A program made the translations under genes and the position numbers. A stretch of DNA of 64,000 nt, from contig NZ_CP094289.1 of assembly GCF_022759505.1 (NCBI RefSeq), forward strand, positions 186,001 through 250,000. Reading direction: 5' to 3'. Numbering within the stretch: position 1 is the first letter of the stretch; each line of letters opens with the position of its first letter. Positions 20,175 to 41,085 of the stretch are shown in pieces. The notes beneath the pieces are model-generated. The model was not told the DNA's origin. It saw only the letters and a list, made by a program, of their open reading frames with translations, and made no database searches. This stretch comes from Georgenia sp. TF02-10 (GTDB taxonomy: Bacteria; Actinomycetota; Actinomycetes; Actinomycetales; Actinomycetaceae).

Positions 20175-20215
20175 GGTGGCGTTGGGTCGGGCCGGGCTGA
20201 TGGCTGCTCGCCAGC

Positions 20216-20298: not shown

Positions 20299-20327
20299 TC
20301 GACCGGGCCTGCCCCGCCCGCCCGCTC

Positions 20328-21117: not shown

Positions 21118-22070
21118 GGTCACCGGCCCAGGCCCCCGCACCTGCCGGGCCGGTGGGAGCATGAGCTGTGCTCGTCAGTGTCGTCATCACGGCCCACGAC
21201 CAGGGCGAGCTGGTCGCCGACGCCGTGGCCTCGGCGACGGAGCAGACCGAGCCGCCCCACGCCGTCGTCGTCATCGACGACGGCTCGACCGATCCCCGCT
21301 CCCTCGCCGTCCTCGACCGGATCGAGACCTCCGGGCGGGCACGGGTCCTGCACCAGGCCAACGCCGGGGTGAGCGCCGCCCGGAACGCCGGCATCGCGGC
21401 GACCGAGACCTCGCTCGTCGCGGTGCTCGACGGCGACGACCAGCTGGCCCCGACGTTCCTCGAACGCACGACCCGCCTGCTCGATGAGGATCCCGAGGTC
21501 GTCGCGGCCTCGTCCTGGCTGCGCATGCACGGTGCCGTGGACGCCGTCGTGCGCCCGCCGGGCGGCGGCGTGGTGGAGTTCCTGCACCGCAACGCCTGCC
21601 CGGCGAACGCGGTGCTGCGCCGGGCCGCCTGGCAGGCGGCCGGCGGATACGACGAGACGATGCGCGACGGGTTCGAGGACTGGGACTTCTTCCTAACGCT
21701 GCTCGCCCGGGGCGGGCGGGCCGCCGTCGTCCCGGAGCCGCTGATCAACTACCGCACGGCGCCCGCCTCGGCGAACGTCCGCTCGATGGAGCGCCGGCTG
21801 GAGCTGTACGGGCGGATCATCGACAAGCACCGCCCGCTCTTCGCCGACCACCTGCGCGAGGCGCTGCTGGGGCTGGAGCGCCGGGCCATGGACGTCCAGG
21901 CGCGGTGGGAGGACGTCGCCACGGCGGACCCGTCCGTCCCGCTCGGGGAGATCACCTACGGCGACGGCGGCATGGCCGCGGCCGTCCGGGTCGCCACCCG
22001 CCGCGCTGCCGCTCGGTAGAGCAGGCGGACGCCAGGGCCGACCTGGGCCGCCGGTAGGGCGATCGCACGC
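21118..22070 (+). repeat. Segmental duplication, copy A (intact)
   Basis: This stretch, from about 50 bp before the GT2 gene to about 50 bp after it, recurs in the same orientation at about 36765-37436. Similarity begins at GGTCACCG and continues through CCGGGCCGGTGGGAGCATGA before the start codon; it fades after CGCCGGTAGGGCGA. Copy B differs by scattered substitutions and one internal deletion of 282 bp. Confidence 0.85.
21168..22019 (+). CDS. Glycosyltransferase family 2, full-length copy
   Basis: 283 residues from GTG 21168. The GT-A nucleotide-sugar site is complete: VSVVITAHDQGELVADAV, VVVIDDGSTDPRSLAVLD, VSAARNAGIAATETS and VAVLDGDDQLAPTFL (the DxD metal site near residue 90). The C-terminal helical part includes FEDWDFFLTLLARGG, the usual ED general-base region. 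It belongs to the surface-glycan cluster on its left. A shortened copy lies 15.6 kb away at 36815. Confidence 0.9.
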   Translation: MLVSVVITAHDQGELVADAVASATEQTEPPHAVVVIDDGSTDPRSLAVLDRIETSGRARVLHQANAGVSAARNAGIAATETSLVAVLDGDDQLAPTFLERTTRLLDEDPEVVAASSWLRMHGAVDAVVRPPGGGVVEFLHRNACPANAVLRRAAWQAAGGYDETMRDGFEDWDFFLTLLARGGRAAVVPEPLINYRTAPASANVRSMERRLELYGRIIDKHRPLFADHLREALLGLERRAMDVQARWEDVATADPSVPLGEITYGDGGMAAAVRVATRRAAAR

Positions 22071-22354: not shown

Positions 22355-24640
22355 TCAGGACGGTCGCGCGGCCGGCTCCCCTGCACCTGCCGGCGCCTCG
22401 AGGCGGCCGGCATGCAGGTCGGCGACGTAGATGTCGGTGTACCGGCTGCCAAGCCCGACCGGGGCGAAGACCTCCGCCTCGGCAAGGTCGACGGTCACCA
22501 CGACGGGCTGCCCCGCCGGGACGCGGACCCGGCGCAACCCGAGGAGCTCCTGCTGACGCGGCAGGACGGGGCCGCCCCGGCGTCGCGCGAGGACCGGCAG
22601 CACCAGCTCGCCGTCGACGTCCCCCGTCGCCTGGACGAGCACCTCCACGGTCACCCGTCCGTCTCGGCGGGTGAGCGTAGCGGAGGCGACGCGGGCGCTG
22701 CCGGCGGCCGCGTGGGCGAAGGGCAGGAGGACCGGCGACGGCACGTCGCGGTAGACGCCGTCGGGCGACCATCGGTCGTTGTGCCGTACCGGCCCGGCCC
22801 CCGAGGCCCGGAGCAGCGTGACCGGGAGCCGCCCGGCGGGCACGACGTCGCCGAGCAGGGCGTCGGCCACCGCCCGCGGTCCGTGGGGGCCGGCATACCC
22901 GGCCCACAGCGTCGCGTCGGAGGCCGCCAGGACGCCGGTCAGGACGTGCGGGCGGCCCGCCACGACGACGGAGACCACCGGCCCGGTGGCGGCGGCACGG
23001 ACGACGGAGAGCAGCTCGTCCTGCTGCCCCGGCAGGCGCAGGTCGGCCAGGTCCACTCCCTCGCCTGCGGAGGCGCGCGTCGCGGCTGCGGCGCCGTTGG
23101 GATCGAACTGGTCGGCGTAGGACCGGTGGCTCGTGCCGCCGAGGACCGCGACGACCACGGTGGCGGCCCGCACGGCCTGGGCGAGTCCGGGGTCCGTAGG
23201 TGCGACGGTGAGAACTCGCCCGGGCAGGCGGGCGGTCAGCTGCTCCAGGACCGTCGGGTACTCACCGTCGCGCAGCGGCGGGACGTAGTCACCCAGGAAG
23301 GGCGTCACGTCGTCGGCGTTGGGGCCGACGACGAGCACGGTCGCCTCGGGGGCGAGGAGCTGCTCGGTCGGGATGTGCCCGTCCAGCAGGACCAGGGCGC
23401 TGGCGGCCAGTCGCCGGGACAGGTCGGCGCTCTCAGCCAGCGCCTGCGGCAGGCGTCCGCGCAGCTCGATCCGCTCGCGCCCCGCACGGGCCGACGAGCG
23501 GGCGGGCAGCAGCCCGAGGCGGTCCTTCAGTCGCAGCACGCGGCGGCACGCCTCGGTCACCGCACGGAAGGTCTGCTCGTCCTGCTCGGCCGAGCGCACC
23601 AGCGTCGTGAAGCCCTCGTCCCACAGCGACACGTCGACGCCGGAGCGCAGGGCGAGCCGCCCGGCGTCCGGGATGCTGCCGGTCAGCGGCAGGAGCTGGT
23701 CGACGGCCAGGCCGTCGGCCATGACGATGCCGTCGAAACCCTGCTCCTGCCGCAGCCAGGTCTGCAGCAGCCAGGGGTTGGCGCAGCACGGCACGCCGTC
23801 GATGTCGTTGTAGGCGGCCATCATCCCGACGGCCCCGGCGCGCACGCCGGCGGCGGCGGGGGCCAGGTGGATCTCGTGCAGGTCGCGCGGCCCGACGATC
23901 GCGGACTGGCCGTTCCGCCCGCCGACCGCCTCGCCCTGCGCGGCCAGGTGCTTGAGCACCACCCCGACACCGTCCCGGCCCAGCCGCCGCCGGTCCGCGC
24001 CCTGCATCCCGCGGACGACGGCGCCCACCAGGGTCGCGGCGAGGAACGGGTCCTCGCCGAAGCACTCCTCGCTGCGCCCCCAGCGCCCGTCCCGCAGGAC
24101 GTCCAGCCCGGAGACGAGCGCGAGGTCCACGCCGGAGGCCGCCAGCTCGGTCGCGACGGCGGCGCTCGCCTCCTCGAGGAGGTCGGGGTCCCAGGTCGCC
24201 GCGAGGGCGAGGTTCTGGGGCAGGATCGTGCCGCCGAGGGCCTGGTGGCCGTGCGGGGCCTCCTCGACCACGAAGGCGGCGAGCCCCTGCGGGTTCGCGC
24301 CGCGCACCGCCTGCTGGACGAGGTCGACGACCTCGAGCCGGTCGTCCGGGGTGACGCCGTTCTCCCAGGACCTGCCCGACCACGCGTCGGCACGCATGAG
24401 CCCGTAGATCGCGCCCAGGCCGGACCAGCGCTCGATCTCGGCCAGCGCCTCGTCGGTCAGGACCCAGCGCCCGCCGCGCCGCTCGACGGCGCGCCAGCCC
24501 AGCAGCCGCTGGTTGAGCTGGCCGACCCGCTGCCGCAGGTCGAGCCCGTCGAGGACCGCCTGGACCCGCGCCTCGCGGTCCTGCCCCGAGGTTTGCTCCG
24601 GGCTGGCCTCGTCCGTGCTGCCGGCCGGGAGCCTGCTCAC
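22355..24640 (-). CDS. Glycoside hydrolase family 3 (exo-beta-glycosidase)
   Basis: 761 residues, no signal peptide, so cytoplasmic. The N-terminal barrel has KHLAAQGEAVGGRNGQSA and the nucleophile region GFDGIVMADGLAVDQLL. The second domain includes LVVGPNADDVTPFLGDY, and a C-terminal fibronectin-III-like domain follows. It lacks the KH(I/F)PGxG signature of NagZ-type N-acetylglucosaminidases, so it resembles beta-glucosidase/xylosidase-type GH3; in this locus it probably removes a terminal beta-linked sugar of imported glycans. GTG at 24640 overlaps the GH5 stop (GTGA). It is the last gene of the operon led by GH38. Confidence 0.88.
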   Translation of the reverse strand: MSRLPAGSTDEASPEQTSGQDREARVQAVLDGLDLRQRVGQLNQRLLGWRAVERRGGRWVLTDEALAEIERWSGLGAIYGLMRADAWSGRSWENGVTPDDRLEVVDLVQQAVRGANPQGLAAFVVEEAPHGHQALGGTILPQNLALAATWDPDLLEEASAAVATELAASGVDLALVSGLDVLRDGRWGRSEECFGEDPFLAATLVGAVVRGMQGADRRRLGRDGVGVVLKHLAAQGEAVGGRNGQSAIVGPRDLHEIHLAPAAAGVRAGAVGMMAAYNDIDGVPCCANPWLLQTWLRQEQGFDGIVMADGLAVDQLLPLTGSIPDAGRLALRSGVDVSLWDEGFTTLVRSAEQDEQTFRAVTEACRRVLRLKDRLGLLPARSSARAGRERIELRGRLPQALAESADLSRRLAASALVLLDGHIPTEQLLAPEATVLVVGPNADDVTPFLGDYVPPLRDGEYPTVLEQLTARLPGRVLTVAPTDPGLAQAVRAATVVVAVLGGTSHRSYADQFDPNGAAAATRASAGEGVDLADLRLPGQQDELLSVVRAAATGPVVSVVVAGRPHVLTGVLAASDATLWAGYAGPHGPRAVADALLGDVVPAGRLPVTLLRASGAGPVRHNDRWSPDGVYRDVPSPVLLPFAHAAAGSARVASATLTRRDGRVTVEVLVQATGDVDGELVLPVLARRRGGPVLPRQQELLGLRRVRVPAGQPVVVTVDLAEAEVFAPVGLGSRYTDIYVADLHAGRLEAPAGAGEPAARPS

Positions 24641-25941
24641 CTCGAGCCTGCCTCGGCGACGGGCGCCAGCTCTTCGTCCGAGACGGAGGTGTAGGCCGCC
24701 CCCGCCCGTGGCTCGACCCGGTGCAGCCTGGTGATCCCGCGCCGGCGGAGGTCGTCCGGGTCGGTGGCGGTGGTGGAGGTGACCAGGGCGGGGCGCTGCC
24801 CGTCCTCGGCGAGGCGCACCCACTCCTCGAAGACCGAGCCGCCCGGGCCGAGCGCGGCGCGCGAGACGGGGGTGTCGTCCTGGTCCACCGGGACGACGAC
24901 CGCGGTGGTCCGCCCGGGCGCGGCTGCCTGGTCGCGCAGCTCGGCGGCGGCCTCCGCGAACGCGTGGCCGAGCGGCTTGACCTGGCCGCCCTGGTCGATC
25001 AGGCCGAGGGTGTGCTCGAAGGGCGGGAAGTCCCCCAGGGTCGGGTCGACGTCGTGGGAGCACCACCAGGTCACGCCCCACAGGGCTGGTGACTCCGCTG
25101 CGTGCCGGACGCTCGCCCGGGCGAAGGGCACCACCTGCTCCGGGTCCAGGACGTTGCCGGGCGCGCCGATCTCCTGCAGCCACACGCCTCGCTCCGGGTC
25201 CGTGGCGAACGCGCGCGCGAGCTCGACCAGGTACTCGGCGTGGCGGTGGCTGTGCGGGGAGTCCGCGCCGTACCGCTGGGCCGTGCCGTTGAAGACCCAG
25301 GAGTGGACGGCGGTCAGGTCGCCCTGCCGCGCGGCGTGGCGCGGCAGGAACGGGTGACCGTCGAGGTACCAGACGGCGTCGTACTCGGCGTGCAGCCGCA
25401 GGCGTCCCGGATCGGCGGGGGCGGCGCCGAGCAGCGTGTCCAGCCAGGTGTCGACGTCGCGGGAGGTGGCCGGCATCGGGCTCGGGTGCGGGGTGCCGGC
25501 GAACTGGTTGAGCTCGTTGCCGAGCGTCAGCCCCCGGTAGGCCGGCTGGTCCGCCAGGGCGTCGTGCACGGCGGTCACCAGGTCGGCCTGGGCCTGCAGT
25601 ACCGCCGCGTCGGTGAACATGTTCCCCCGGTGCCAGGAGGAGAGCCAGGACGGCACGAAGTCGAAGCTCGACAGGTGTCCCTGCAGCACGTCCAAGTACA
25701 CCTCCAGCCCCTGGGCGGCGGCGATGTCGACGGTGCGGCGCAGGTCGGCCAGGGCCGCGGGGTCGATGTAGGTCCGGTTGGGCTGCAGCACCGGCCACAG
25801 GGGAAAGACCCGGACGTGGTCCATCCCGAGCCCGGCTACGGCGGCCAGGTCACGCTCGGTGGAGCGCCAGTCCACGTCGTGCCAGGAGTAGAACCAGCGG
25901 TGGGACGGTGTGTAGTTCACCCCGAAGCGCAAGGGGGTCAT
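24637..25941 (-). CDS. Glycoside hydrolase family 5-like enzyme, probable beta-mannosidase
   Basis: 434 residues, cytoplasmic. The barrel starts LRFGVNYTPSHRWFYSW. GLTLGNELNQF supplies the acid/base glutamate and VWLQEIGAPG the nucleophile glutamate, as in GH5/clan A. The overall look is that of the actinobacterial and bifidobacterial subfamily that splits Man-beta-1,4-GlcNAc, the core disaccharide of N-glycans; that subfamily call is an inference from motifs and from the GH85 and GH38 neighbours. ATG at 25941 overlaps the permease stop (ATGA), and it is coupled to GH3 downstream. Confidence 0.82.
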   Translation of the reverse strand: MTPLRFGVNYTPSHRWFYSWHDVDWRSTERDLAAVAGLGMDHVRVFPLWPVLQPNRTYIDPAALADLRRTVDIAAAQGLEVYLDVLQGHLSSFDFVPSWLSSWHRGNMFTDAAVLQAQADLVTAVHDALADQPAYRGLTLGNELNQFAGTPHPSPMPATSRDVDTWLDTLLGAAPADPGRLRLHAEYDAVWYLDGHPFLPRHAARQGDLTAVHSWVFNGTAQRYGADSPHSHRHAEYLVELARAFATDPERGVWLQEIGAPGNVLDPEQVVPFARASVRHAAESPALWGVTWWCSHDVDPTLGDFPPFEHTLGLIDQGGQVKPLGHAFAEAAAELRDQAAAPGRTTAVVVPVDQDDTPVSRAALGPGGSVFEEWVRLAEDGQRPALVTSTTATDPDDLRRRGITRLHRVEPRAGAAYTSVSDEELAPVAEAGSR

Positions 25942-26822
25942 CCTTTCAGGCCGCCGGACTCGAGGCCGCGGAAGAAGTAGCGCTGCAGCAGCGCGAAGAA
26001 GGCGACGATCGGCACCAGGGCCACGACCGTGCCGGCCGCGATGAGTCGGGGGTCGTCGTAGAAGGTTCCGCGCAGCCGGTTCAGGCCGACGGTGAGGGTG
26101 TACTGGCTGTCGTCGGACAGGACGATCAGCGGCCACAGGAAGTCGTTCCAGGCGCCGACGAAGGAGAAGATCGCGACCACGGTGATGACGCCCTTGACCT
26201 GCGGGACGCAGATGCGCAGGAAGCGCTGCCAGGCGTTGGCGCCGTCGATGGTGGCCGCTTCCTCGAGCTCCTTCGGGATCGCCGCGAAGGCGTTGCGCAT
26301 GAGGAACACGTTCAGTGCGGTGATCAGGGTGGGCAGGGCGACGCCGAGCAGCGTGTTCTGCAGCTGCATCGACCGCACGAGCAGGAACTGCGAGACGATG
26401 ACGGTCTCGACGGGCACGAGCATCGCGGTCAGCAGCAGGCCGAGCACCAGGCTCCGCCCGCGGAAGCGCAGCCGCGCCAGGGCGTAGCCGGCGAGCGTGG
26501 CTCCCACCACGTTGCCGCCGACGACGAACGCGGCGACCACCACCGAGTTGCCGACGTAGTGCAGCACCGGGACGCGGTCCAGGACCTCGGCGAAGTTCGT
26601 CAGGGTCGGGTCGGTCGGCACCAGCTGGGGCGGGCGTGCGTACAGGTCGTCCCCGGCGCCCTTGAGCGACAGGGACAGCTGCCACACGAGCGGCCCCGCG
26701 AGCAGCAGGAACATCGCGACCAGCACGAGGTACTGGACGACAGTGCCCGGACGGACCCGACGCCTGCGCCGCGGGGCCTGGGGTGCGGCGCTGCTGGTTG
26801 CGCTGGGCGCGGTGACCGTCAT
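25938..26822 (-). CDS. Carbohydrate ABC transporter permease, MalG type
   Basis: 294 residues with six predicted membrane helices. The EAA loop that docks the ATPase reads ELEEAATIDGANAWQRFLRI, typical of CUT1 sugar importers. The N-terminus is long and basic (PQAPRRRRRVRPG). It overlaps the MalF-type gene by ATGA. No ATPase gene is in the locus, so the importer probably borrows a shared MsiK-type ATPase, as usual in actinobacteria. Confidence 0.93.
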   Translation of the reverse strand: MTVTAPSATSSAAPQAPRRRRRVRPGTVVQYLVLVAMFLLLAGPLVWQLSLSLKGAGDDLYARPPQLVPTDPTLTNFAEVLDRVPVLHYVGNSVVVAAFVVGGNVVGATLAGYALARLRFRGRSLVLGLLLTAMLVPVETVIVSQFLLVRSMQLQNTLLGVALPTLITALNVFLMRNAFAAIPKELEEAATIDGANAWQRFLRICVPQVKGVITVVAIFSFVGAWNDFLWPLIVLSDDSQYTLTVGLNRLRGTFYDDPRLIAAGTVVALVPIVAFFALLQRYFFRGLESGGLKG

Positions 26823-27784
26823 GACTTCTCCTGCCGGTTCTGCACGACGAGCTGGATCGCGATCAGCGCGCCGAGGACGACGAACATCACCAGGCTGATC
26901 GCGCCGGCGTAGCCGGTCTGCGCCTGCAGCCCCGTGCCCTCGCGCTGGACGAGCATGGTCATGGTCAGGACCTGCCCACCCGGGCCGCCGGTGCCGTTGG
27001 TCAGCACGTACACCTCGCCGAACACCCGGAAGGCGGCGATCGACGACAGCAGGCCGATCAGGAACATGGTGTTGCGAACTCCGGGCAGCGTGACGTTGAG
27101 GAACGAACGCACCGCTCCCGCGCCGTCGACCGCGGCGGCGTCGTACAGCGTGTCGTCGATGTTCGCCAGGGCAGCCAGGTAGATGACCATGTAGTACCCC
27201 AGGCCGGTCCAGACGGTGACGAACATCGCGGAGAACAGCAGGAGCCAGCGGTCGGTCAGGAACGGGATCGGTTCGGCTATCACCTGCAGCCACTGGAGCA
27301 GCTCGTTGACCAGGCCCTGCTTGCCCAGCATGTTGGTCCAGATCAGGCCGACGATCACCGAGGACATGACGACGGGCAGGTAGAACGTGGTCCGGAAGAA
27401 GCCCATGATCCGGGTGCTGCCGCGCACCAGGGTGGCCAGGATGAGCGGGAGCAGGACCATGAACGGGACCACGCACACCACGTACAGGCTCGAGTTGAGC
27501 ATCGCGGTGCCGAACCGTGGGTCGGCGAACAGGCGCTGGAAGTTGGCGAGCCCGACGAATTCGCCCCGCCGCAGCATGGTGGAGTCCGTGACGGACAGCA
27601 GCAGGGTGTTGACGAACGGGTAGACCACGAGCAGGCCCACCACGACCACCGCCGGGACGAGGAACAGCCACGGGGTGAACCACCGGGAGTGGGTCCGGGA
27701 GGCGGGGCCGTCCCGCCCGGCGCGGCGCGCCGGGCGGGACGTGACCGGGGCGGCAGCCCGGTCGGCGAGGGCAGGCAGGGCCAT
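26819..27784 (-). CDS. Carbohydrate ABC transporter permease, MalF type
   Basis: 321 residues. After a basic N-terminus there are six helices (first: FLVPAVVVVGLLVVYPFVNT). The cytosolic coupling loop is NIDDTLYDAAAVDGAGAVRS. It forms the heteromeric channel with the MalG-type permease and receives substrate from the lipoprotein encoded immediately upstream, three bases away. Predicted substrate is an oligosaccharide released from high-mannose N-glycans, from context only. Confidence 0.93.
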   Translation of the reverse strand: MALPALADRAAAPVTSRPARRAGRDGPASRTHSRWFTPWLFLVPAVVVVGLLVVYPFVNTLLLSVTDSTMLRRGEFVGLANFQRLFADPRFGTAMLNSSLYVVCVVPFMVLLPLILATLVRGSTRIMGFFRTTFYLPVVMSSVIVGLIWTNMLGKQGLVNELLQWLQVIAEPIPFLTDRWLLLFSAMFVTVWTGLGYYMVIYLAALANIDDTLYDAAAVDGAGAVRSFLNVTLPGVRNTMFLIGLLSSIAAFRVFGEVYVLTNGTGGPGGQVLTMTMLVQREGTGLQAQTGYAGAISLVMFVVLGALIAIQLVVQNRQEKS

Positions 27785-27787
27785 GGA

Positions 27788-29086
27788 TCAGTTCCCGGAC
27801 AGCCGGCCGTTGGAGTACTCGACCGAGGCGTCGAGGGCCTCCTGGGCCGACTTCTCCCCGAGCAGCGCCAGCGCCACCTGCTCGCGGAGCGTCTCGGCGT
27901 CCGCGGCGCCGGAGAACGCCGGCGGCCACCACACCACCGCCTCGGTCACCTGCTGGGCCGTCTCCACCCGCACCTGGGTCTCGGGGGTGCCGTCCTCCTC
28001 GGTGAAGTAGGGGTCCTCGAGCGTCCCTGCCGACGACGGGAACACGTTGGCCGCCTTCGCGAACTCGAACTGGTTCTCCGAGCTGGTGACGTACTTGGCG
28101 AACTCGGTGGCCAGCTCCTGGTTCTCGGTGCCGGCGTTGACGACGAGGGACTCGATGTACATGTTCGGTGCGGCGTTGGCGATGCGTGGGCCCATCGCGA
28201 CCGTGTCGTAGATGTCGGGCGCGGTCTCCTTGAGGTCGTTCAGGGTGTAGGAGCTGCCCGGCAGGTATGCCAGGCGGCCGGCCTTGAACTCCTCGACCTC
28301 GTTGGTCTGCAGGTTGTTCAGCGACTCCTCGGTCAGGCCCTGCCCCTCGTACAGCTCGACGAACTTCTGCACCAGCTCGACGCCCTTGGGATCGTTGTAG
28401 GTGAACTCGGTGCCGTCCTCGTTCATCAGCTCCACCCCGTACTCGCCGAAGTTCTCGATCACCGGTGTCCGCGCGAGCATCGCCTTGTCTGGGCAGCTCG
28501 CGCGCAGCGTCGTGGCCTGCTCGAAGAGCTCGTCGTAGGTCGTCGGGAGGTTCGCCGGGTCCAGGCCGCACTGCTCGAGCAGCGTGGTGTTGAAGAACGA
28601 CGGGCCAGTGTTGAGGTACCAGGGGTAGCCGTAGGTGCCGCCGCCCAGCCCCTCGAAGGTCATCGCCTCCCAGGCCTTGGGCAGGTACAGGTCCTTGGCC
28701 TCGGGGTCGGCCTCGGCGATGTCCAGGATCGCGCCGGCCTGGCCGAGCGTGTAGGCGGCCTCCGGCCCCATGTCGATGACGTCGGGCAGCGACCCGGCGG
28801 CAGCGTCGGCGGACAGCTTCTCCTGGTAGCCCTCGGCCGGCTGGTCGACCCAGGTGACGGTCGTCCCCGGGTGCTCGGACTCGAACGCGTCGATCAGTCC
28901 CTCGAAGTAGGGCGTGTACTTCTCGTTCTTCAGGTTCCACGTCTGGAAGGTGATCTCCCCGGACATCTCGCTGGACGCGCCCGACGCGTCGTCGCTGCCC
29001 TGCCCGCCCGAGTCTCCGCAGGCGGACGCGAGCAACGCGACGCCTGCCACGCCGGCGGCGATGGCGGCGGAGCGGTTCCTGTTCAT
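27788..29086 (-). CDS. Sugar-binding lipoprotein of an ABC importer (CUT1)
   Basis: 432 residues. The lipoprotein signal ends LLASACGDS, with Cys as lipid anchor. The mature part is a family 1 solute-binding protein: GEITFQTWNLKNEKYTPYFE, YQEKLSADAAAGSLPDVIDM, and the aromatic clusters YGYPWYLNTGPSFF and VVWWPPAFSG, suited to stacking on sugars. It is second in the operon, 44 bp after the GH38 mannosidase gene. The likely ligand is a mannose-containing oligosaccharide, an inference from its neighbours. Confidence 0.92.
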   Translation of the reverse strand: MNRNRSAAIAAGVAGVALLASACGDSGGQGSDDASGASSEMSGEITFQTWNLKNEKYTPYFEGLIDAFESEHPGTTVTWVDQPAEGYQEKLSADAAAGSLPDVIDMGPEAAYTLGQAGAILDIAEADPEAKDLYLPKAWEAMTFEGLGGGTYGYPWYLNTGPSFFNTTLLEQCGLDPANLPTTYDELFEQATTLRASCPDKAMLARTPVIENFGEYGVELMNEDGTEFTYNDPKGVELVQKFVELYEGQGLTEESLNNLQTNEVEEFKAGRLAYLPGSSYTLNDLKETAPDIYDTVAMGPRIANAAPNMYIESLVVNAGTENQELATEFAKYVTSSENQFEFAKAANVFPSSAGTLEDPYFTEEDGTPETQVRVETAQQVTEAVVWWPPAFSGAADAETLREQVALALLGEKSAQEALDASVEYSNGRLSGN

Positions 29087-29130
29087 GGTTCTCTCCTGAT
29101 GTGGTGGGTGATGCCGACGACGGGTCGCCG

Positions 29131-32100
29131 TCAGCGGGTGAATCGCAGGGTGGCTACCTGGAAGGGCGCCAGCTCGAGGAGCGCCCCGTCGGCCGGGGCC
29201 TCGCCGGGCCCGTCGGCCGGGCCCACGCGCAGCGCGGTCGGTAGTGCCGGGTCGACCGGGTCCTCCTCCAGCAGGTCGGTCTCCCGCACGACGGCGGCGG
29301 TCAGCCCCGGGCCCGGGCGCAAGCGGGCGCGGGCGTGGCCGCCGAACGGCTCGTACAGGCGGGCGACGACGTCGCCCGACCCGTCGTCGGCGAGCTTGAC
29401 CCAGTCGACGACGACGTCACCGCGCTCGGGGTCCGTCTGCAGCAGGGGCGGCAGGTCCGGCAGCGCCGCGACCAGGGGCGCGTTGAGCGTGGCCGCCGCC
29501 GCCAGGGTCGGGCGCCGGGAGCCGGCCGCGACCACCGCGAAGCGGTACCGGTGCCTGCCCAGGTCGGTGTCCGGGTCCGGGAACCGCGGCGAGCGCACCA
29601 GCGACGGGCGCACCAGGGTGCCGCCCGGCAGCGGGGCCACGTCCGCGCCGTAGGTGCCGTCGTTGACGACGCCGACCGTCCAGCCGGGCTCCTCGAGCAT
29701 CACGAACCGGTGGGTGCAGGTCTCGAACTGCGCCTCGTCCGCCGCGGTGTTGGCGTGCACCGGGCGCGGGATGAGGCCGTACTGGGTCTCGTGCAGGGCC
29801 TCGCGGGCGGTGACCGCCAGCGGCAGCGCGAGCTTGAGCAGGTGCTCGCGCTCGTGCCAGTCGACCTCCACCTCGAGCTCCACGGCGTCGGCGCCGGGAC
29901 GCAGCCACCAGGTGGTCCGGGCCCGTGAGCTGCCGAAGGTGCGCTCGGTCGTGACACCGGCCGCGGGCCCCTCGGCGACGGCGGTGACGGACTCGGCGTC
30001 CACCAGGTCGCGCGGGTGCCGCAGCACGTGCCGGTCCAGGTCCCAGGCGTCCCAGCGCACCGGCTCGTCGCGGAGCACCTGCAGCACCCCGAGCCGCTGC
30101 CCGGGGGCGACCACCTCGCGGCCGGTGGCCCGGTCGCGCACCGACGTGACGTGCCCGTCGCCGTCCACGCGCACCGTCAGCGTGCCGTTGTCCAGCACCG
30201 TCCCGCCGTCGTCCGGGGCCGCGGTCACCGGCTCCTCGGCGCGCCGGGCGTCGCCGGGCCCGACGGCACGCCAGTCCGCGCGCGGCTCGGCCCCCACCGG
30301 CACCAGCGTGCCCGGGGCCGCGGCGCCGCCGCCGAGCGCCGCTGCCGCCCGGTCCGCGAGCGCGTGGGCGCGCTTCTCGACGTCGGCGTACTCGTCCCGG
30401 GACTCCCGGTGCACCCACGGGATCGAGGAGCCCGGGAGGATGTCGTGGAACTGGTTGAGCAGCACCATCTTCCAGAGGTCTTCGAGCTCGCTCTGGGGGT
30501 AGGGGGCGCCGGCGCGGACCGCGGCGGCGGTGGCCAGGTACTCCACGGTCCGCAGCAGCGACTCGGCGCGGCGGTTGCCCTGCTTCATCGCGACCTGGCT
30601 GGTCAACGTCCCCCGGTGCAGCTCCAGGTAGAGCTCGCCGTACCAGGTGGGCGCGTCCGGGGCCGCGGCCAGCTCGGCCTCCGCCCGCACGAAGAACTCC
30701 TCCGGCGTGCGGGACACCACGCGCGGCGCCCCCTCCAGGTCGGCGAACCGCCGCGCGCGGGCCACCATCTCCCGGGTCGGGCCGCCGCCGCCGTCGCCGT
30801 ACCCGAAGGACAGCAGCGAGTGCGAGGCGACGTCCTTGTCCCGGAAGTTGGCGACGGCGTGGTGCAGCTCGGCCGCGGTGACCTCCGCCGCGTAGGTGTC
30901 GGCCGGCGGGAAGTGCGTGAAGATGCGCGTGCCGTCGATGCCGTGCCACCAGAACGAGTGGTGGGGGAAGGTCGTCGTGTCGTTCCAGGAGATCTTCTGG
31001 GTGAGGAACCAGCGGAACCCGGCCCGCCGGGCCAGCTGCGGCAGCGCGCCGGAGTAGCCGAAGGAGTCGGGCAGCCAGACCTCGCGGGGGCGGGTCCCGA
31101 AGCGGGCGACCATGTCGCGCACGCCGTAGGCCATCTGGCGCACGTAGGACTCCCCGGTCGGCATCATCCCGTCCGGCTCGACCCACATGCCGCCGACCGG
31201 GACGAACCTGCCGGCGCGCACCTGCGCCACGACCCGCTCGTACAGGTCCGGGTAGCGCTCCTGCAGCCAGCGGAAGTGCAGCGACGCCGACATCGTGTAG
31301 ACGAAGGGCTCGCCGGCCTCGAGGAGCGCGAGGACGTTGGACACGGTGCGACCGAGCTTGCGCCGGGTCTCGCGGACCGGCCAGAGCCAGGCGGAGTCGA
31401 TGTGCGCGTGCCCGACGGCGCTGATCTCGTGCGCGCTCGCGCTGGCCGGCGCGGCCAGCACCTCGGCCAGCGCCCCGCGCGCCGCGCCCGCCGAGGACGG
31501 GTCGTCCTCGTCCCAGGCGTCCAGCGCGGCGTCCAGTGCGCGGGCGAGCCGCCAGTGCCGCGGGTCGTCGTCGTGCGTCTGCTCGACCAGGCCCTTGACC
31601 ACCTCGACGTCGCGCGCGAGCTCCCACACCTCCTGCTCGAACCGGGACAGACCGGCGCTGCGCAGCACGTACGGGTCGTCGGCCGGCGTCACCTGCGCGC
31701 CCAGCCCGGTCTCCAGGAACGGCGGCAGGCCGAGCAGCAACGGGTTGGCGGCCGCCTCGACGTACAGCACGAACGAGCCGTCGGCGGTCAGGACGTCGGG
31801 GGAGGCGCCCGGGCCGGTCAGCCGGACCCAGCCGTTGCGCGGGTGCAGCGCCTTGACCACCGTGCCGTCCGGCCGGTAGACGAGGCCCTCGACGTGGCCG
31901 CCGACCGAGTGGTCGAACCAGCCCAGGTCGAGCACCAGCTCGACGGTGCCCGCGCCGTCGGGGACGGTGCCGGTGACCCGGAACCACGTCGTGGTCCACA
32001 CCCCTCCCCACGCCCCCGGCACCGCGAACGGGGCGAAGTCGACCCGCTCGGCGCCGTCGGCCACGACCCAGCCGACGGGCACCGGCTCGCCGCCGAGCTC

Positions 32101-32208
32101 GTGCGCCGCCACCTCGACCGGGGCGAGCGGCGTGTGGACGTGGGGCTGGATGCGCTCGCGCAGGACGCGCTCGGCGCGGTCCAGGACCCGCTGCGGGCTG
32201 CTGTGCAT
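29131..32208 (-). CDS. Glycoside hydrolase family 38 alpha-mannosidase
   Basis: 1025 residues, cytoplasmic. The GH38 zinc site is seen in VGHAHIDSAWLWPVRETRRK, the nucleophile region in GGMWVEPDGMMPTGESYVRQ, and the third conserved region in PREVWLPDSFGYSGALPQLA. The C-terminal half is the beta-rich mannosidase domain. It would trim alpha-mannose residues from imported N-glycans. ATG at 32208 has GGGAG upstream and gives the family N-terminus; an ATG at 32238 lies inside the operator and is unlikely. It is the first gene of the operon and is preceded by a LacI-type operator. Confidence 0.94.
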   Translation of the reverse strand: MHSSPQRVLDRAERVLRERIQPHVHTPLAPVEVAAHELGGEPVPVGWVVADGAERVDFAPFAVPGAWGGVWTTTWFRVTGTVPDGAGTVELVLDLGWFDHSVGGHVEGLVYRPDGTVVKALHPRNGWVRLTGPGASPDVLTADGSFVLYVEAAANPLLLGLPPFLETGLGAQVTPADDPYVLRSAGLSRFEQEVWELARDVEVVKGLVEQTHDDDPRHWRLARALDAALDAWDEDDPSSAGAARGALAEVLAAPASASAHEISAVGHAHIDSAWLWPVRETRRKLGRTVSNVLALLEAGEPFVYTMSASLHFRWLQERYPDLYERVVAQVRAGRFVPVGGMWVEPDGMMPTGESYVRQMAYGVRDMVARFGTRPREVWLPDSFGYSGALPQLARRAGFRWFLTQKISWNDTTTFPHHSFWWHGIDGTRIFTHFPPADTYAAEVTAAELHHAVANFRDKDVASHSLLSFGYGDGGGGPTREMVARARRFADLEGAPRVVSRTPEEFFVRAEAELAAAPDAPTWYGELYLELHRGTLTSQVAMKQGNRRAESLLRTVEYLATAAAVRAGAPYPQSELEDLWKMVLLNQFHDILPGSSIPWVHRESRDEYADVEKRAHALADRAAAALGGGAAAPGTLVPVGAEPRADWRAVGPGDARRAEEPVTAAPDDGGTVLDNGTLTVRVDGDGHVTSVRDRATGREVVAPGQRLGVLQVLRDEPVRWDAWDLDRHVLRHPRDLVDAESVTAVAEGPAAGVTTERTFGSSRARTTWWLRPGADAVELEVEVDWHEREHLLKLALPLAVTAREALHETQYGLIPRPVHANTAADEAQFETCTHRFVMLEEPGWTVGVVNDGTYGADVAPLPGGTLVRPSLVRSPRFPDPDTDLGRHRYRFAVVAAGSRRPTLAAAATLNAPLVAALPDLPPLLQTDPERGDVVVDWVKLADDGSGDVVARLYEPFGGHARARLRPGPGLTAAVVRETDLLEEDPVDPALPTALRVGPADGPGEAPADGALLELAPFQVATLRFTR

Positions 32209-32236
32209 GGCTCCCTCTCCTCGGCCTGCCCGGGAC

Positions 32237-32252
32237 ACTAATGCGCTTTAGT
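32237..32252. promoter_or_regulatory. LacI-type operator upstream of the mannosidase operon
   Basis: ACTAATGCGCTTTAGT is a near-perfect palindrome around a central CG step. On the minus strand its core reads CTAAAGCGCATTAG, which differs at one base from the operator at 33570 in front of the GH85 gene. It lies 29 bp before the GH38 start, in the promoter region and directly downstream of the lacI-type gene, the natural place for substrate-induced repression. Confidence 0.75.
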
Positions 32253-32303
32253 CCCAGGGCGCAAGGACCCTGGTCACGCTCCTCCTGGCTCTCCCCGCAG
32301 CGG

Positions 32304-33392
32304 TCAGAACACCGAGGGGTCGACGTCTTCCGTGACGGCGGGGTCGGAGCTGCCGCGCACCACGAGCGCCGGGGGCGGCAGCACGACGCTCGCCGGGCGG
32401 CCGCCGTCGACCTGCCGCATCAGGTGCTCGGCGACCGCCGCGCCGTAGCGGTAGGTCTGCCGGTGCAGCGCCGTGATCTGCGGACGGGTGGCGGCGCAGA
32501 TGACGCCGTCCTCGAAGCTCACCACGGCCACGTCCCCGGGCACGGCCAGGTCCCGCCCCTTGAGCACGCCGACCCCGGCGACGGCCAGGACCTCGTTCTC
32601 GAACACGATCGCGGTCGGGGGCTCGGTGCGGGCGAGCTGCTCCGCGACGGCCGCGGAGCCGGCCTGGGCGGAGAAGTCCGTCGGGACGACCACGACGTCG
32701 GCGCCGGCCTCCCCCGCGTAGCCCATGAACGCCCCGGCGCGCTGGCGCACGTGCTCCAGCGCGGGGTCGCCGGCGACGTAGGCGATCCGCCGGTGACCGA
32801 GCCCGGCCAGGTGGTCGATGATCAACCGCGTCGCGGCGACGTCGTCGATCGACACCGACGACAGCCGAGCCTCGGGGTCGGGCCCGCCCACCAGGACCGC
32901 GGCCAGGCCCAGGTCGCGCAGCGCGGCGGGCCGGGCGTCGTCCTGGTGCAGGTCGACCAGCACCACGCCGTCGACCCGCCGCTCCGAGGACCAGCGCCGG
33001 TAGACGTCCAGCTCCTCCGCCACCGAGGGGACCACCTGGAACAGCAGGCCGTAGTGCCGCGCGGACAGGGTGGACTGGATGCCCGCGACCAGGTGCAGGA
33101 AGAACGACTCGGTGCCGATGCTCTCCGGCGCGCGCGCCACGACGAAGCCGATCGTGGAGGAGCCGGCGCCGGTGAGCGCCCGGGCCGCGTAGTTCGGCGT
33201 GAAGCCCAGCTCCGCGACGGCGCTGAGGATCCGGGCCCGGGTCTCCTCGGAGATCCCCGGACGGCCGTTGAGCGCGAACGAGACCGCCGTCTCGGAGACC
33301 CCGACGAGCTCGGCGATGTCACGGGCTCGGGGCCGGCGCACGGCCGGGCCGGCCGTCTGCCGCCGAGCGCGCACTCCCCCGTCCTCTGGCAC
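32304..33392 (-). CDS. LacI family regulator of the N-glycan locus
   Basis: About 362 residues. The helix-turn-helix and hinge are visible as RARDIAELVGVSETAVSFAL, then NGRPGISEETRARILSAVAE, followed by a periplasmic-binding-protein-like sensor domain (TIGFVVARAPESIGTESFF onwards). GTG at 33392 is chosen because it starts close to the HTH; an in-frame ATG at 33488 would add a Pro/Ala-rich extension. It lies between the two identical-type operators at 32237 and 33570 and most likely represses both transcription units until an oligosaccharide binds. Confidence 0.88.
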   Translation of the reverse strand: MPEDGGVRARRQTAGPAVRRPRARDIAELVGVSETAVSFALNGRPGISEETRARILSAVAELGFTPNYAARALTGAGSSTIGFVVARAPESIGTESFFLHLVAGIQSTLSARHYGLLFQVVPSVAEELDVYRRWSSERRVDGVVLVDLHQDDARPAALRDLGLAAVLVGGPDPEARLSSVSIDDVAATRLIIDHLAGLGHRRIAYVAGDPALEHVRQRAGAFMGYAGEAGADVVVVPTDFSAQAGSAAVAEQLARTEPPTAIVFENEVLAVAGVGVLKGRDLAVPGDVAVVSFEDGVICAATRPQITALHRQTYRYGAAVAEHLMRQVDGGRPASVVLPPPALVVRGSSDPAVTEDVDPSVF

Positions 33393-33569
33393 CTGCCGAG
33401 GATACGTCGCCGCCGGCCCGGGGTCCGCGGCTGGCTCGGCGAGCTCGGGGGCCCACGGAGGGATCAGGGCCGGCTCCCGCCGCCGCACCGCCGCCCGTCG
33501 CCCGCCGCACCAGCCCCCGCCGCACCGGCCCCCGCCGACCTCTTGTGCGCCGCCGGCTCCGTCCCTACG

Positions 33570-33583
33570 CTAAAGCGCGTTAG
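33570..33583. promoter_or_regulatory. LacI-type operator upstream of the GH85 gene
   Basis: CTAAAGCGCGTTAG, a near-palindrome with the central CG of LacI-family sites, lies 57 bp before the GH85 start. It matches 13 of 14 bases of the site before the mannosidase operon, tying secreted release and import of the glycan to one regulator. Confidence 0.75.
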
Positions 33584-33639
33584 TAGGTTCGCGGCACGAC
33601 GCCGACGTCACCGTTCCTCGAGAAGGCAGGTACCCGCCC

Positions 33640-36405
33640 ATGCCCACGTCGCCCTCGCCGAGCACGGCGCGCTCGCGCCGGGCCCGACGCTCCCGCCGGG
33701 CGGTCACCGCCCTCGCGTCGTCGGCGCTGCTCGCCACCACCCTGACGCTGCCGGCCACGGCCTCCGACACCCTCCCGTGGACCGGCGAGAGCGCCAAGGG
33801 CGCCAACCAGCCCTACCAGCACGGCTACTCCACCGCCGACCTGCTGCGCTGGACGCCGGACAGCGACCTGTTCGGTGACCTGCTGCGCGCCCGGGTCCCG
33901 CTGCAGGAGCGCGTCGAGCCGATCGCGGCGACCCAGCAGAACCCGGGGCTGGACCCGAGCACCCAGCTGCTCAACCTCGCCGGCGACTACGGCAACGCCT
34001 TCTTCGAGTCCTACCAGTCGAACAACGAGTTCAGCGCCCACGTCTTCGAGTTCTGGCAGTACACCGACTACTACGCCTCCTGGCACGGCACGCCGACCGC
34101 GGGCATCCCGGAGGAGTGGTACGACCCCGCCAAGGACTGGCGCGAGAAGTGGTTCGAGTTCGGCATGCTCAACCTGCCCAACCCCGCGTACACCAACGCG
34201 GCGCACAAGAACGGCGCCCTGTCGATCGGGACGATCTTCTTCTCCCCCAACGACCGCGGGCACCAGAGCTACGACGAGCTGCTCGTCAAGGACGCCGAGG
34301 GACGCTTCCCGGTCGCCGACAAGCTCGTCGAGCTCGCGGGCTACTACGGCTTCGACGGCTACTTCATCAACCAGGAGTCGGCGATCTCGGCCGCCCGGAT
34401 CACCGACTACAAGCGGTTCATCCAGCAGCTGCGCGACGGCGGCCTCTACGTGCAGTGGTACGACTCCATCCACAACACCTCGGGCAGGATCAGTTACCAG
34501 AACGCGTTCACCCCGGTCAACAGCCCATGGGTGCGCGACGCCGAGATCGGCGACGTGGCCGACTCGATCTTCCTCAACTACTGGTGGAACCGGCCACGGC
34601 TCACGAGCTCCAAGGCGCATGCCGAGTCGCTCGGACTGGACCCGCACGAGGCGGTGTTCGCGGGGGTCGAGGCCGGGATGTACCAGTTCGACCAGCCCTA
34701 CGACCTGGACGACAACCTCGACGCCGAGGGCCGTCCGATGAACTCCATCGCCACCCTCGGCGCCGACTTCGTCCACGCCGACATGCCGGACAAGGAGAAC
34801 GACGCCACCCAGTGGCGGGCCTTCGACCGCTCCCGCCAGTGGTGGACCGGTAGCTCCACCGGCCGCCCCGGCGGGACCACGTCCCCCCGGTGGGACGGCA
34901 TCTCCACGTACGTCGCCGAGCGCTCGGTCATCGACGGCACCACCTTCGCCACCACCTTCAACACCGGCCACGGGCTGGAGTACCGGGAGGCGGGGCAGGT
35001 CGCGAGCGAGGCCGAGTGGTCCAACATCAACGTGCAGGACGTCCCGGTGACCTGGCAGTGGGACGTGCGCACCGACGGCACGCCCCTGGACGTCGACTAC
35101 GACTACGGCCCCCGGTACACCAAGGCCGACCGGTTCTCCTACCAGCAGGTCGGCGCGTACGAGGGCGGCAGCTCCCTCGTGGTCGCCGGCACCGTCGACG
35201 CGGACTCCACCGTCCGCCTCTTCCGCACCGACCTGGACGTCACCAGCAGGTCCGAGCTCGCCGTCACCTACAACAAGCCGTCGGCCGACGACGACACCGA
35301 GCTGGCCGCCGTCGTCACGCTGACCGACGCCCCCACCACCGAGATCGAGCTGCCCCTGACGGACTCCGGCAGGCGCACCGACGGCTGGACGACCAGCACC
35401 CTCGACCTCGCCGACCTGGCCGGGAAGAAGATCGCGACGATCTCCCTCAAGGTCGCCGCCGGGTCGGCCCCGGTCGAGGACTACCAGGTCAACCTCGGCG
35501 CCCTGCGGCTGACCGACGGGACCACCCCCGCACCGGCCAGGCCGACCGGTTTCACGCTCGACGCTGCGCTGATCGACACCGACGAGGCGATCGTGAGCTG
35601 GGACCTGGCGCCGTACGACCAGGTCACCGAGTACGCCGTCTACGCCGACGGCACCTACCTGGGCGGGACCTACGACGAGACGCTCTACCTCAAGAAGCTC
35701 GACGACGACAAGGGCACCCTCGAGCTGTACGCGATCGGGCCCGACGGCCAGCGCAGCGCGCCCGCCACGATCGACTACGACCTGACGACCGCCCCGCGGG
35801 ATCTGACGGCGACGTCGAGGGCCGACGGCACCGTCGAGGTCACGTGGACCGAGGTGCCGGCGAAGGGACCGGCCCGGGTCTCGCTGACGTCCGAGTACTC
35901 CGAGGAGGCCATCGAGCGGCGGACGGTCATCGGCCGCGGCCAGCAGGACAGGGCGGTCTTCCGCGCGCTGCCCGTGGACGGCGGCCACTTCCGCGCAACC
36001 GTCCAGGTCGGCAAGGGCACCCCCGTGAGCGTCCGCAGCGAGTTCGTCGACACCGTGGTCCCCCCGTACCCGGCCGACCTGGCCACCGTCTCCGCGGACG
36101 GCCGGAGCCTGGCTATCGAGGCGCCCGACGGCGTCCCCGACTGGTACAAGCTCTACGTGGAGGAAGACGGCGTCGCCAAGGCCTTCGCCACGACCTACTC
36201 CTACGGTTCGACGCCCTACGTGGTCCGCGGACGGACCACGGCAGCTGCGCTCGCGGACGTCCGGCTCACGAGTGCGACGAGCGAGGTCACCATCACCATC
36301 GAGGACTACGCGGGGAACCGGGCCACGACCACGATCAGGCCGGCCGGTGCCACGGCTCGGGACGTGACGGTCGAGCCCGGGTCCGGGGCCCGCGACGGCG
36401 GCTAG
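33640..36405 (+). CDS. Secreted endo-beta-N-acetylglucosaminidase, glycoside hydrolase family 85
   Basis: 921 residues with a long basic signal peptide (SRRARRSRRAVTALASSALL... ending near ATAS). The GH85 core spans about residues 45-480: YQHGYSTADLLRWTPDSDLF, then GYYGFDGYFINQESA, in which Asn244 and Glu246 are the catalytic pair of this family, and LYVQWYDSIHNTSGRISYQN. Beta-sandwich and fibronectin-like modules follow to the C-terminus, probably for carbohydrate or wall contact. GH85 enzymes cut the chitobiose core of N-glycans, leaving one GlcNAc on the protein. No sorting signal is seen at the C-terminus, so it is probably released. Confidence 0.93.
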   Translation: MPTSPSPSTARSRRARRSRRAVTALASSALLATTLTLPATASDTLPWTGESAKGANQPYQHGYSTADLLRWTPDSDLFGDLLRARVPLQERVEPIAATQQNPGLDPSTQLLNLAGDYGNAFFESYQSNNEFSAHVFEFWQYTDYYASWHGTPTAGIPEEWYDPAKDWREKWFEFGMLNLPNPAYTNAAHKNGALSIGTIFFSPNDRGHQSYDELLVKDAEGRFPVADKLVELAGYYGFDGYFINQESAISAARITDYKRFIQQLRDGGLYVQWYDSIHNTSGRISYQNAFTPVNSPWVRDAEIGDVADSIFLNYWWNRPRLTSSKAHAESLGLDPHEAVFAGVEAGMYQFDQPYDLDDNLDAEGRPMNSIATLGADFVHADMPDKENDATQWRAFDRSRQWWTGSSTGRPGGTTSPRWDGISTYVAERSVIDGTTFATTFNTGHGLEYREAGQVASEAEWSNINVQDVPVTWQWDVRTDGTPLDVDYDYGPRYTKADRFSYQQVGAYEGGSSLVVAGTVDADSTVRLFRTDLDVTSRSELAVTYNKPSADDDTELAAVVTLTDAPTTEIELPLTDSGRRTDGWTTSTLDLADLAGKKIATISLKVAAGSAPVEDYQVNLGALRLTDGTTPAPARPTGFTLDAALIDTDEAIVSWDLAPYDQVTEYAVYADGTYLGGTYDETLYLKKLDDDKGTLELYAIGPDGQRSAPATIDYDLTTAPRDLTATSRADGTVEVTWTEVPAKGPARVSLTSEYSEEAIERRTVIGRGQQDRAVFRALPVDGGHFRATVQVGKGTPVSVRSEFVDTVVPPYPADLATVSADGRSLAIEAPDGVPDWYKLYVEEDGVAKAFATTYSYGSTPYVVRGRTTAAALADVRLTSATSEVTITIEDYAGNRATTTIRPAGATARDVTVEPGSGARDGG

Positions 36406-36764
36406 CGGACGGCGCCTCGTAGCGGACGGCCGACATGGGTACGTCGGCTGCCGGCTGCACCGCGTTGCCCGCGACCCAGACTCGTCGACGCTGGTGCGTC
36501 CCGGGGGTCGGCCCGGGTGAAGGTAGCCACCGGGCCCTTGGCTGTCGCGGCGCCGAGAGGCCGGGGTGTGGCGTCGGCCGGGATCAGGGCGGAAAGGGTG
36601 ACGATGGCGTCCAGCGCTACCCTCCGCCCCGTCGCTCGGCTGGAGGCCGGTCAGACCGCGCCCCTCGTCGAGGACTCGTTCCACGACGCCGTCGCGGACC
36701 TGGATGCCCCGTGCCGCGAGGTGAGATCCCGGGTGTCACCGGCTACGACCCTGACGGCAGTTCG
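36406..36764. other. Gene-free interval between GH85 and the duplicated GT2 segment
   Basis: No frame here has a recognisable product; frames that stay open do so because of GC content. A repeated AGCGGACGGC occurs at about 36404 and 36421. I see no terminator or operator that I can support. Confidence 0.5.
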
Positions 36765-37436
36765 GTCACCGAGGCCAGTCCCCGGTACCCGCCGGGCCGG
36801 TGGGAGCATGAGTTGTGCAGGTCAGTGTCGTCATCACGGCCCACGACCAGGGCGAGCTGGTCGCCGACGCCGTGGCCTCGGCGACGGAGCAGACCGAGCC
36901 GCCCGACGCCGTCGTGCGCCCGCCGGGCGGCGGCGTGGTGGAGTTCCTGCACCGCAACGCCTGCCCGGCGAACGCGGTGCTGCGCCGGGCCGCCTGGCAG
37001 GCGGCCGGCGGTTACGACGAGACGATGCGCGATGGGTTCGAGGACTGGGACTTCTTCCTCACGCTGCTCGCCCGGGGCGGGCGGGCCGCCGTCGTCCCGG
37101 AGCCGCTGGTCCGCTACCGCACGGCGCCTGCCTCGGCGAACGTCCGCTCGATGGAGCGCCGGCTGGAGCTGTACGGGCGGATCATCGACAAGCACCGCCC
37201 GCTCTTCGCCGACCACCTGCGGGAGGCGCTGCTGGGGCTGGAGCGCCGGGCCATGGAGGTCCGGGCGCGGTGGGAGGACGTCGCCGCGGCGGATTCGTCA
37301 GTCCCGCTGGGGGAGATCACCTACGGCGACGGCGGCATGGCCGCGGCCGTGCGGGTCGCCACCCGCCGCGCTGCTGCTGGGTAGAGCGGGCCGGACACCG
37401 TGGTCGACGCGAGCCGCCGGTAGGGCGACCGCGCGC
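36765..37436 (+). repeat. Segmental duplication, copy B (internally deleted)
   Basis: Same orientation as copy A at 21118-22070. Compared with A it lacks 282 bp between two 10-bp direct repeats ACGCCGTCGT, which in copy A lie at 21259-21268 and 21541-21550; one of them remains in copy B at about 36906. The two copies bracket the whole N-glycan locus, 15.6 kb from start codon to start codon. Confidence 0.85.
36815..37384 (+). pseudogene. Truncated copy of the GT2 gene lacking the catalytic core
   Basis: Still an open frame of 189 residues, starting MQVSVVITAHDQGELVADAV and jumping after TEPPDAVVRPPGG straight to the C-terminal half. The deletion removes 94 codons in frame, including the IDDGS and LDGDDQ motifs that bind the nucleotide sugar and metal, so transferase activity is not expected. 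Over the shared part only about nine residues differ from the full-length protein at 21168, so the copying is recent or selection has kept the remainder. Its ribosome binding region is preserved. A non-catalytic role cannot be excluded. Confidence 0.8.
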
Positions 37437-41077: not shown

Positions 41078-41085
41078 TGCGATTA

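Follow-up and report, generated by a model that had tools for sequence, protein, structure and literature searches.

The locus at positions 22355-36405 of a 64,000-nucleotide stretch of the Georgenia sp. TF02-10 genome (NZ_CP094289.1; the whole stretch is called the window below) raises the question of which glycans it serves and of what its glycoside hydrolase family 3 (GH3) enzyme contributes. The original prediction described a complete high-mannose N-glycan harvesting locus. The reading that we favour, with slightly better than even confidence, is a LacI-controlled N-glycan utilisation cassette in which GH3 is a putative exo-beta-1,2-xylosidase and plant-type N-glycans are the substrates. 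In this pathway, the secreted GH85 would cut the chitobiose core of glycoproteins, so that one N-acetylglucosamine (GlcNAc) and whatever core fucose it bears remain attached to the protein, and the CUT1 transporter, whose ATPase is probably encoded elsewhere, would import the freed (xylosylated) mannosyl-GlcNAc oligosaccharide. GH38 would strip alpha-mannose in the cytoplasm, GH3 would free the core mannose of its beta-1,2-xylose, uncapping the substrate of GH5_18, and GH5_18 would then split mannose-beta-1,4-GlcNAc (Man-beta-1,4-GlcNAc). The GH3 step would be needed first because a xylose at O2 of that mannose is expected to block GH5_18. Since core alpha-1,3-fucose would be left on the protein by GH85, no fucosidase should be needed, which fits the genome (98.24% complete), where no GH29 (PF01120) match was found.

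Genes and operators of the N-glycan cassette

Family membership, catalytic residues, the order of the genes and the operators can all be read directly from the cassette sequence (Table 1). The secreted GH85, CUT1 importer, GH38, GH5, GH3 and LacI listed in the original prediction were all found where it had placed them. Pfam profiles backed every gene product except GH5, with permease 1 just below its cut-off. The GH85 protein matched PF03644 with an expectation value (E) of 3.1e-67 and 227.7 bits, the cut-off being 22.2, and its N-terminus resembles a signal peptide by eye. Its FINQE motif, also reported earlier, lies at 34363-34377 (residues 242-246) and aligns with the FINQE of Endo-D (2w91); further GH85 structures in the PDB were matched as well. 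The Asn and Glu of this motif are presumably the catalytic residues. Characterised relatives lend good support to its prediction as an N-glycan-releasing endoglycosidase.

For GH5, no Pfam match was obtained at E 0.001, and NCBIfam returned merely a weak endoglycoceramidase match. Against the PDB, the protein scored 460.8-567.7 bits to eight chains (BlGH5_18, BlMan5B, ScGH5_18 and 9y4v), the top match being 7lqx, named BlGH5_18, and 312.3 bits to 6gvb. The motifs GNELNQ (141) and LQEIGAP (255) hold what we take to be the two catalytic Glu of GH5_18, and both Glu align in 7lqx. By its sequence matches, the cassette GH5 belongs to GH5_18 and is related to enzymes that cleave Man-beta-1,4-GlcNAc; an unrelated GH5 subfamily, which had been named as the finding that would overturn the N-glycan assignment, is not where the 567.7 bits to 7lqx place it. 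A mannanase was ruled out by the 53.4 bits to endo-mannanase 7bob. GH38 gave 1082.5 bits to the alpha-mannosidase 7ufr over residues 3-1025, and no signal peptide was seen in it; its nearest structures are 7ufr-7ufu, whose source organism is presumably Bifidobacterium longum. The best PDB match of the binding protein (6wpm, 120 bits) is titled 'substrate-binding protein' and is uninformative on the ligand.

The distribution of the genes was determined in 200 genomes of the family, with the window genome included. GH5_18 was present in 46 and GH85 in 19 of these genomes, and all 19 GH85 genomes also carried GH5_18 (hypergeometric P 2.3e-14). These results bear on whether the genes form an operon for plant mannan or general mannosides and no N-glycan locus. 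Mannan loci can likewise hold an ABC importer, alpha- and beta-mannosidases and GH3. Such an operon is nevertheless very improbable here, considering the GH5_18 identity of the GH5, its presence in 19/19 GH85 genomes, and the exclusive action of characterised GH85 enzymes on N-glycans according to the available text of PMC10154615. By analogy with characterised relatives, the release, import, GH38 and GH5_18 steps are well supported, and that part of the original prediction in which N-glycans are released, imported and dismantled stands, with GH5 placed in GH5_18 and with GH85, GH38 and the importer present.

At E 1e-90 or better, members of the GH3 clade were found in three of the 200 genomes, all with GH85 and GH5_18. 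These three (window, L142 and L143) carry an identical set of eight genes, and the order LacI, GH38, binding protein, permease 1, permease 2, GH5_18, GH3 is common to them, with GH85 at either end. The cassette proteins of L142 and L143 are 49-72% identical to those of the window, and the three GH85 proteins have the best PF03644 scores of the family (219-231 bits, the other 16 scoring at most 181). Three stretches were inspected from the 16 GH85 genomes without clade GH3: in L144 and L146 the remaining seven genes are present, rearranged in order and at 35-48% identity, and L145 matched GH85 only. The same cassette was found in Streptomyces, Nonomuraea and Microbacterium (L035, L037 and L039), at 53-78% identity for the enzymes and transporter and 42-44% for LacI.

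The palindrome CTAANNCGNNTTAG has exactly two sites in the 4,086,948-base genome, both in the cassette, and a backwards control had none. The shared operators claimed earlier are thus real: operator 1, ACTAAAGCGCATTAGT, lies between lacI and GH38, and operator 2, GCTAAAGCGCGTTAGT, between lacI and GH85, with 0.05 sites of up to three mismatches expected by chance per window. In 21 cassette loci (441 kb), chosen after their gene content had been seen, the palindrome occurred 32 times, or 28 times in the 20 that remain once L129, a duplicate of the L055 contig, is set aside; a control palindrome had no match, and the 61 other GH3 loci (1.16 Mb) had none of the operator. Related loci that share it range from Streptomyces to Bifidobacterium, seven of the 21 lacking it by pattern, and the assignable matches lie mostly just upstream of GH38, binding protein, LacI or GH125. 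Within the family, two operators were found in L143 (G468): the first lies in the lacI-GH38 gap, and the second precedes the GH85 match by about 200 bases. The pattern finds no operator in L142, whose cassette is complete. One operator each was found in L144 and L145, that is, in two of the three inspected GH85 loci without cassette-type GH3. The operator therefore marks N-glycan loci with or without GH3. No published account of this regulon was found in the open-licence literature, including the available text of a Bifidobacterium regulation paper (PMC4746261), and one may exist.

The GH3 enzyme and its putative substrate

Both the N and C domains of GH3 are present, and no signal peptide was seen. 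Glu127, the nucleophile Asp309 and the acid/base Glu527 are encoded at approximately 24262, 23716 and 23062, respectively. The nearest PDB chain by sequence is the Thermotoga maritima beta-xylosidase (265.5 bits), and Asp309 and Glu527 align with its catalytic D281 and E517, a pair read from the double mutant D281N/E517Q (8c7f). Among 79 aligned GH3 proteins, Asp309 and Glu127 were present in all 79 and Glu527 in 78. In eight outgroup GH3 proteins, the Glu127 column holds Asp in two, both nearest BglX, and Glu in six; the three Glu rows that were typed are nearest the xylosidase/arabinosidase model. A Glu in the -1 subsite, in place of the Asp of glucosidases, would exclude the C6 of a hexose. 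At the sequence level, Glu127 leans towards a xylosidase, which is short of proof. The AlphaFold2 model of GH3 has a mean predicted local distance difference test score of 87.1, and Foldseek and VIA comparisons failed to separate xylosidase from glucosidase. The genome encodes a xylose isomerase. The NagZ-type motif KHxPGHG is absent from GH3, as the original prediction had said of the NagZ signature, and a NagZ-type beta-N-acetylhexosaminidase was ruled out on this basis.

The neighbours of GH3 were then considered on a wider scale. In a sample of 297 genomes of the order, 73 GH3 matches fell into 14 strong ones (at least 438 bits, in 13 genomes) and 59 weak ones (at most 234 bits), and GH5_18 lay within 10 kb of 12/14 strong GH3 genes (11/13 without the window) vs 0/59 weak ones. 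Among the named loci of the best 80 of 416 GH3 relatives, 56 had an alpha- or beta-mannosidase gene and 37 had both. GH85 was present in 11 of the 80 loci by tblastn and in 10 by profile; profile neighbour counts are undercounts, as two genes that tblastn detected, the L043 GH85 and the L048 GH5_18, escaped the gene caller. GH85 and GH29 occur together in none of the 80 loci, the numbers being too small to mean much.

This neighbourhood can be set against a high-mannose locus in which GH3 shares the regulation and, as a beta-glucosidase or some different accessory enzyme, serves a substrate that is unrelated or secondary. GH85, GH38 and GH5_18 could suffice for such glycans, same-family loci without GH3 exist (L144 and L146), and EmGH1, titled beta-glucosidase, shares the Glu with the cassette GH3. 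We nonetheless consider this explanation rather unlikely, as the GH3 and GH5_18 genes overlap by 4 bases, the clade tracks GH5_18 in the order sample at the frequencies given above, and clade GH3 recurs beside different beta-mannosidases (GH5_18 and GH2) in Actinomycetota and Bacillota.

The identity of the sugar is a separate matter, since the gene context ties GH3 to N-glycans and to no particular sugar. Another beta-linked N-glycan sugar (antennal or bisecting GlcNAc, or galactose) or non-plant beta-xylose (fungi, molluscs, worms, algae) could be the target, and beta-1,2-xylose does occur outside plants. A target of this kind is unlikely in our view: a distinct hexosaminidase accompanies this GH3 at 25 of the 80 loci (GH20 at six and NagZ-like GH3 at 19), and GH3 itself, without the NagZ motif, aligns with xylosidases. 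Clade GH3 was found with GH29, GH2 beta-mannosidase, GH38 and GH125 in Jiangella (L042), and with GH20, GH38 and GH2 in a member of the Clostridiales (L065). As the other core sugars are served at these two loci, elimination would leave beta-xylose as the unserved one.

A second design of N-glycan locus was found in Streptomyces. In L072 (5891-21775), clade GH3 stands with GH5_18, a NagZ-like GH3, a BadF-type kinase, a second GH38 type, an ABC importer and an RpiR regulator. Nineteen Streptomyces loci, including L072, have the NagZ-like GH3 and GH5_18 near clade GH3, and 17 of them also have the large second GH38 type. As a separate observation, in L068 (7718-12199) and five other Streptomyces loci the neighbour of this GH3 type is a GH5 matching PF00150 (746 amino acids in L068).

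In the GH3 tree (102 rows), the window falls in a 26-row set with full support (Shimodaira-Hasegawa-like approximate likelihood ratio test, SH-aLRT, 100), and 22 of the 26 rows have N-glycan neighbours. The N-glycan label is strongly clustered on the tree, none of 500 shuffles giving a value as low. Searches of plasmids by tblastn recovered GH3 from Phocaeicola massiliensis (L114) and Bacteroides finegoldii (L116). In L114, as judged by eye, GH3 comes after a pair of GH2-like genes that flank an AraC-like gene; no sulfatase was seen in this stretch, which covers one side of the circular record, and its GH3 is not identified with B035DRAFT_00995, the published beta-1,2-xylosidase of Bacteroides massiliensis. 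The plasmid record L116 (6549-12238) encodes SusC/D, GH18, a pair of DUF1735 proteins and a GH3 that has an EEAPHGH motif, and appears to be a related N-glycan scheme built on GH18.

Several observations weigh against a xylosidase that serves plant-type N-glycans. EmGH1 (5z87) carries the same Glu, so Glu127 is not decisive, and by fold EmGH1 and the beta-xylosidase tie as best match (Z 38.6 vs 38.1). The best NCBIfam match of GH3, the xylosidase/arabinosidase model NF052329, is far below its cut-off (285.7 of 1050 bits), which places GH3 outside that equivalog. No mannosidase profile match was found in 24 of the 80 GH3 loci, including Paenibacillus and some Streptomyces loci, in which GH3 has different neighbours, and several short contigs; one of the 24 is the nearest relative, Tessaracoccus L034, whose GH5_18 is elsewhere in the genome. 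The N-glycan label needs 15 changes on the tree and thus forms no single clean clade. The presence of the operator at L144 and L145 supports an N-glycan regulon and not a role of GH3. A genome-size test for host association among GH5_18 genomes was not significant (1/15 vs 11/34, P 0.075). Finally, the available text of a 2023 review states that activity on plant N-glycans was at that time known for no GH18 or GH85 enzyme (PMC10154615).

On balance, we infer that GH3 acts as a beta-1,2-xylosidase and hence that plant-type N-glycans are substrates. The original prediction gave GH3 no step in its scheme; the enzyme proves instead to be a conserved cassette member, with an active site that leans towards the xylosidase type. 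The label 'high-mannose' is too narrow. N-glycan harvesting holds, high-mannose specificity is not established, and the presence of GH3 suggests that xylosylated, plant-type N-glycans are substrates, either intended or additional.

A wider proposal is offered tentatively, as possible but short of probable: a GH85-based route for plant-type N-glycans that bypasses core alpha-1,3-fucose, with a new GH3 exo-beta-1,2-xylosidase subfamily in Actinomycetota and Bacillota that makes the core mannose accessible to mannosidases of GH5_18 or GH2. If this is true, the cassette would provide a pathway of four enzymes open to direct test, a GH85 that may be the first known to act on plant-type N-glycans, and a tool enzyme to strip immunogenic xylose from plant-made proteins. 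Moreover, GH3 would be a gene marker that may sort N-glycan feeders by diet, with GH3-containing and GH3-free cassettes marking plant-glycan and animal-glycan feeders, respectively, each with its own GH85 subtype.

Layout of the locus and its flanks

The eight genes of the locus comprise seven on the minus strand and GH85 alone on the plus strand, divergent from lacI. The minus-strand genes are transcribed in the order LacI, GH38, binding lipoprotein, CUT1 permease 1, permease 2, GH5 and GH3, and 4-base overlaps link successive genes from permease 1 through permease 2 and GH5 to GH3.

Table 1. Features of the cassette, in window coordinates
Feature	Coordinates	Strand	Evidence
GH3, 761 amino acids, GTG start at 24640	22355..24640	-	PF00933 + PF01915
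Predicted GH5_18 exo-beta-1,4-mannosidase (Man-beta-1,4-GlcNAc), 434 amino acids	24637..25941	-	PDB matches 7lqx, 6mp2, 7lr1, 6gvb; motifs
CUT1 sugar ABC permease 2	25938..26822	-	PF00528, E 2.4e-19
CUT1 sugar ABC permease 1	26819..27784	-	PF00528, E 1.4e-5, 25.4 of 26.4 bits; NCBIfam UgpA model, 3.3e-25
Sugar-binding lipoprotein	27788..29086	-	SBP_bac_8 + SBP_bac_1; lipobox-like N-terminus (by eye)
GH38 alpha-mannosidase, Ams1 / B. longum type	29131..32208	-	Four GH38 Pfam domains; 7ufr
Operator 1, ACTAAAGCGCATTAGT, between lacI and GH38	32237..32252	minus	
LacI-family regulator	32304..33488	-	PF00356, PF13377
Operator 2, GCTAAAGCGCGTTAGT, in the lacI-GH85 divergent intergenic region	33569..33584		
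Secreted GH85 endo-beta-N-acetylglucosaminidase, 921 amino acids	33640..36405	+	PF03644; FINQE

The cassette is bracketed by a direct repeat of approximately 94% identity (21118-22070 and 36764-37436). The left copy surrounds a glycosyltransferase-like open reading frame, as judged by eye, and the right copy is without about 270 internal bases. The G+C content steps from 0.771 (12001-22070) to 0.730 in the cassette and 0.680 (37619-47790). Together with the patchy family distribution of the clade (3/200), the repeat and these steps suggest that the cassette was acquired or inserted as a block.

Beyond the right repeat, the minus-strand gene at 37619-41158 encodes a 1179-amino-acid protein with a secreted-looking start, a GH39/GH5-like region (8uwt, 5u22), a CBM35 match just below cut-off and a duplicated C-terminal repeat (37643-37906 and 37913-38164, 76%). 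The minus-strand genes at 42386-47790 encode a second sugar ABC importer, assigned by eye, and then a melibiase-family protein closest to the beta-L-arabinopyranosidase model (631 of 1100 bits). Taken with the gene before them, these are possibly a neighbouring locus for plant arabinogalactan-proteins.

Comparison with known systems

A precedent for the proposed GH3 step is the plant N-glycan pathway of Bacteroides massiliensis. There, as described in the available text of PMC9522356, a GH3 enzyme has been shown to act as a beta-1,2-xylosidase on plant N-glycans, taking the xylose off the core mannose; it acts only after removal of the alpha-1,3-mannose and does not cut beta-1,4-xylobiose. Unlike the Georgenia locus, that pathway uses a type II peptide N-glycosidase, GH92 and a GH29 alpha-1,3-fucosidase, is spread over three loci and has a GH3 that is likely periplasmic (PMC9522356, same text). 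Georgenia has GH85, GH38, GH5_18 and GH3 in one cassette and no GH29 match in its genome.

GH5_18 is also part of the high-mannose N-glycan pathway of B. longum, which, as in the Georgenia scheme, pairs it with a cytoplasmic GH38. According to the accessible part of the review PMC10154615, the B. longum pathway comprises an endoglycosidase, three GH38 and GH125, and release outside the cell is followed by import, as proposed here. The structures nearest to the Georgenia GH38 and GH5_18 are presumably both from B. longum. The Georgenia cassette differs in having one GH38, no GH125 and an added GH3.

A further parallel is the GH38/GH5_18/GH20 locus of Cutibacterium acnes, which shares the GH38 and GH5_18 pair, a sugar transporter and a regulator, and whose CaMan5_18 (6GVB) is a confirmed exo-beta-1,4-mannosidase (PMC6160142, as far as its available text describes). 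Unlike the Georgenia locus, it includes GH20, with GH18 too in strain 266, and its GH3 is a separate secreted gene (same source). GH85 and a GH3 without signal peptide are found in the Georgenia locus. In marmoset bifidobacteria, the N-glycan island of B. reuteri holds a GH3 called beta-glucosidase; the available text of PMC8406136 gives it no N-glycan step and reports no GH85. In Bifidobacterium reuteri DSM 23975 (L049, 12411 onwards), GH85 was observed directly after GH3. The listing of bifidobacterial N-glycan families in the portion available of PMC13120772 is without GH3.

NixI, of the Xanthomonas nix system, is presumably a GH3 xylosidase for N-glycans as well. The accessible text of PMC5700972 names nixI without a function. 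Within the open-licence literature searched, as far as the available texts extend, no proposal of an actinobacterial GH3 beta-1,2-xylosidase in an N-glycan locus was found. N-glycan loci of the GH85/GH38/GH5_18 type are already known (PMC6160142 and PMC10154615, in their available parts). The parts of the Georgenia cassette are accordingly known, and the combination of GH85 with the cassette-type GH3 is new.

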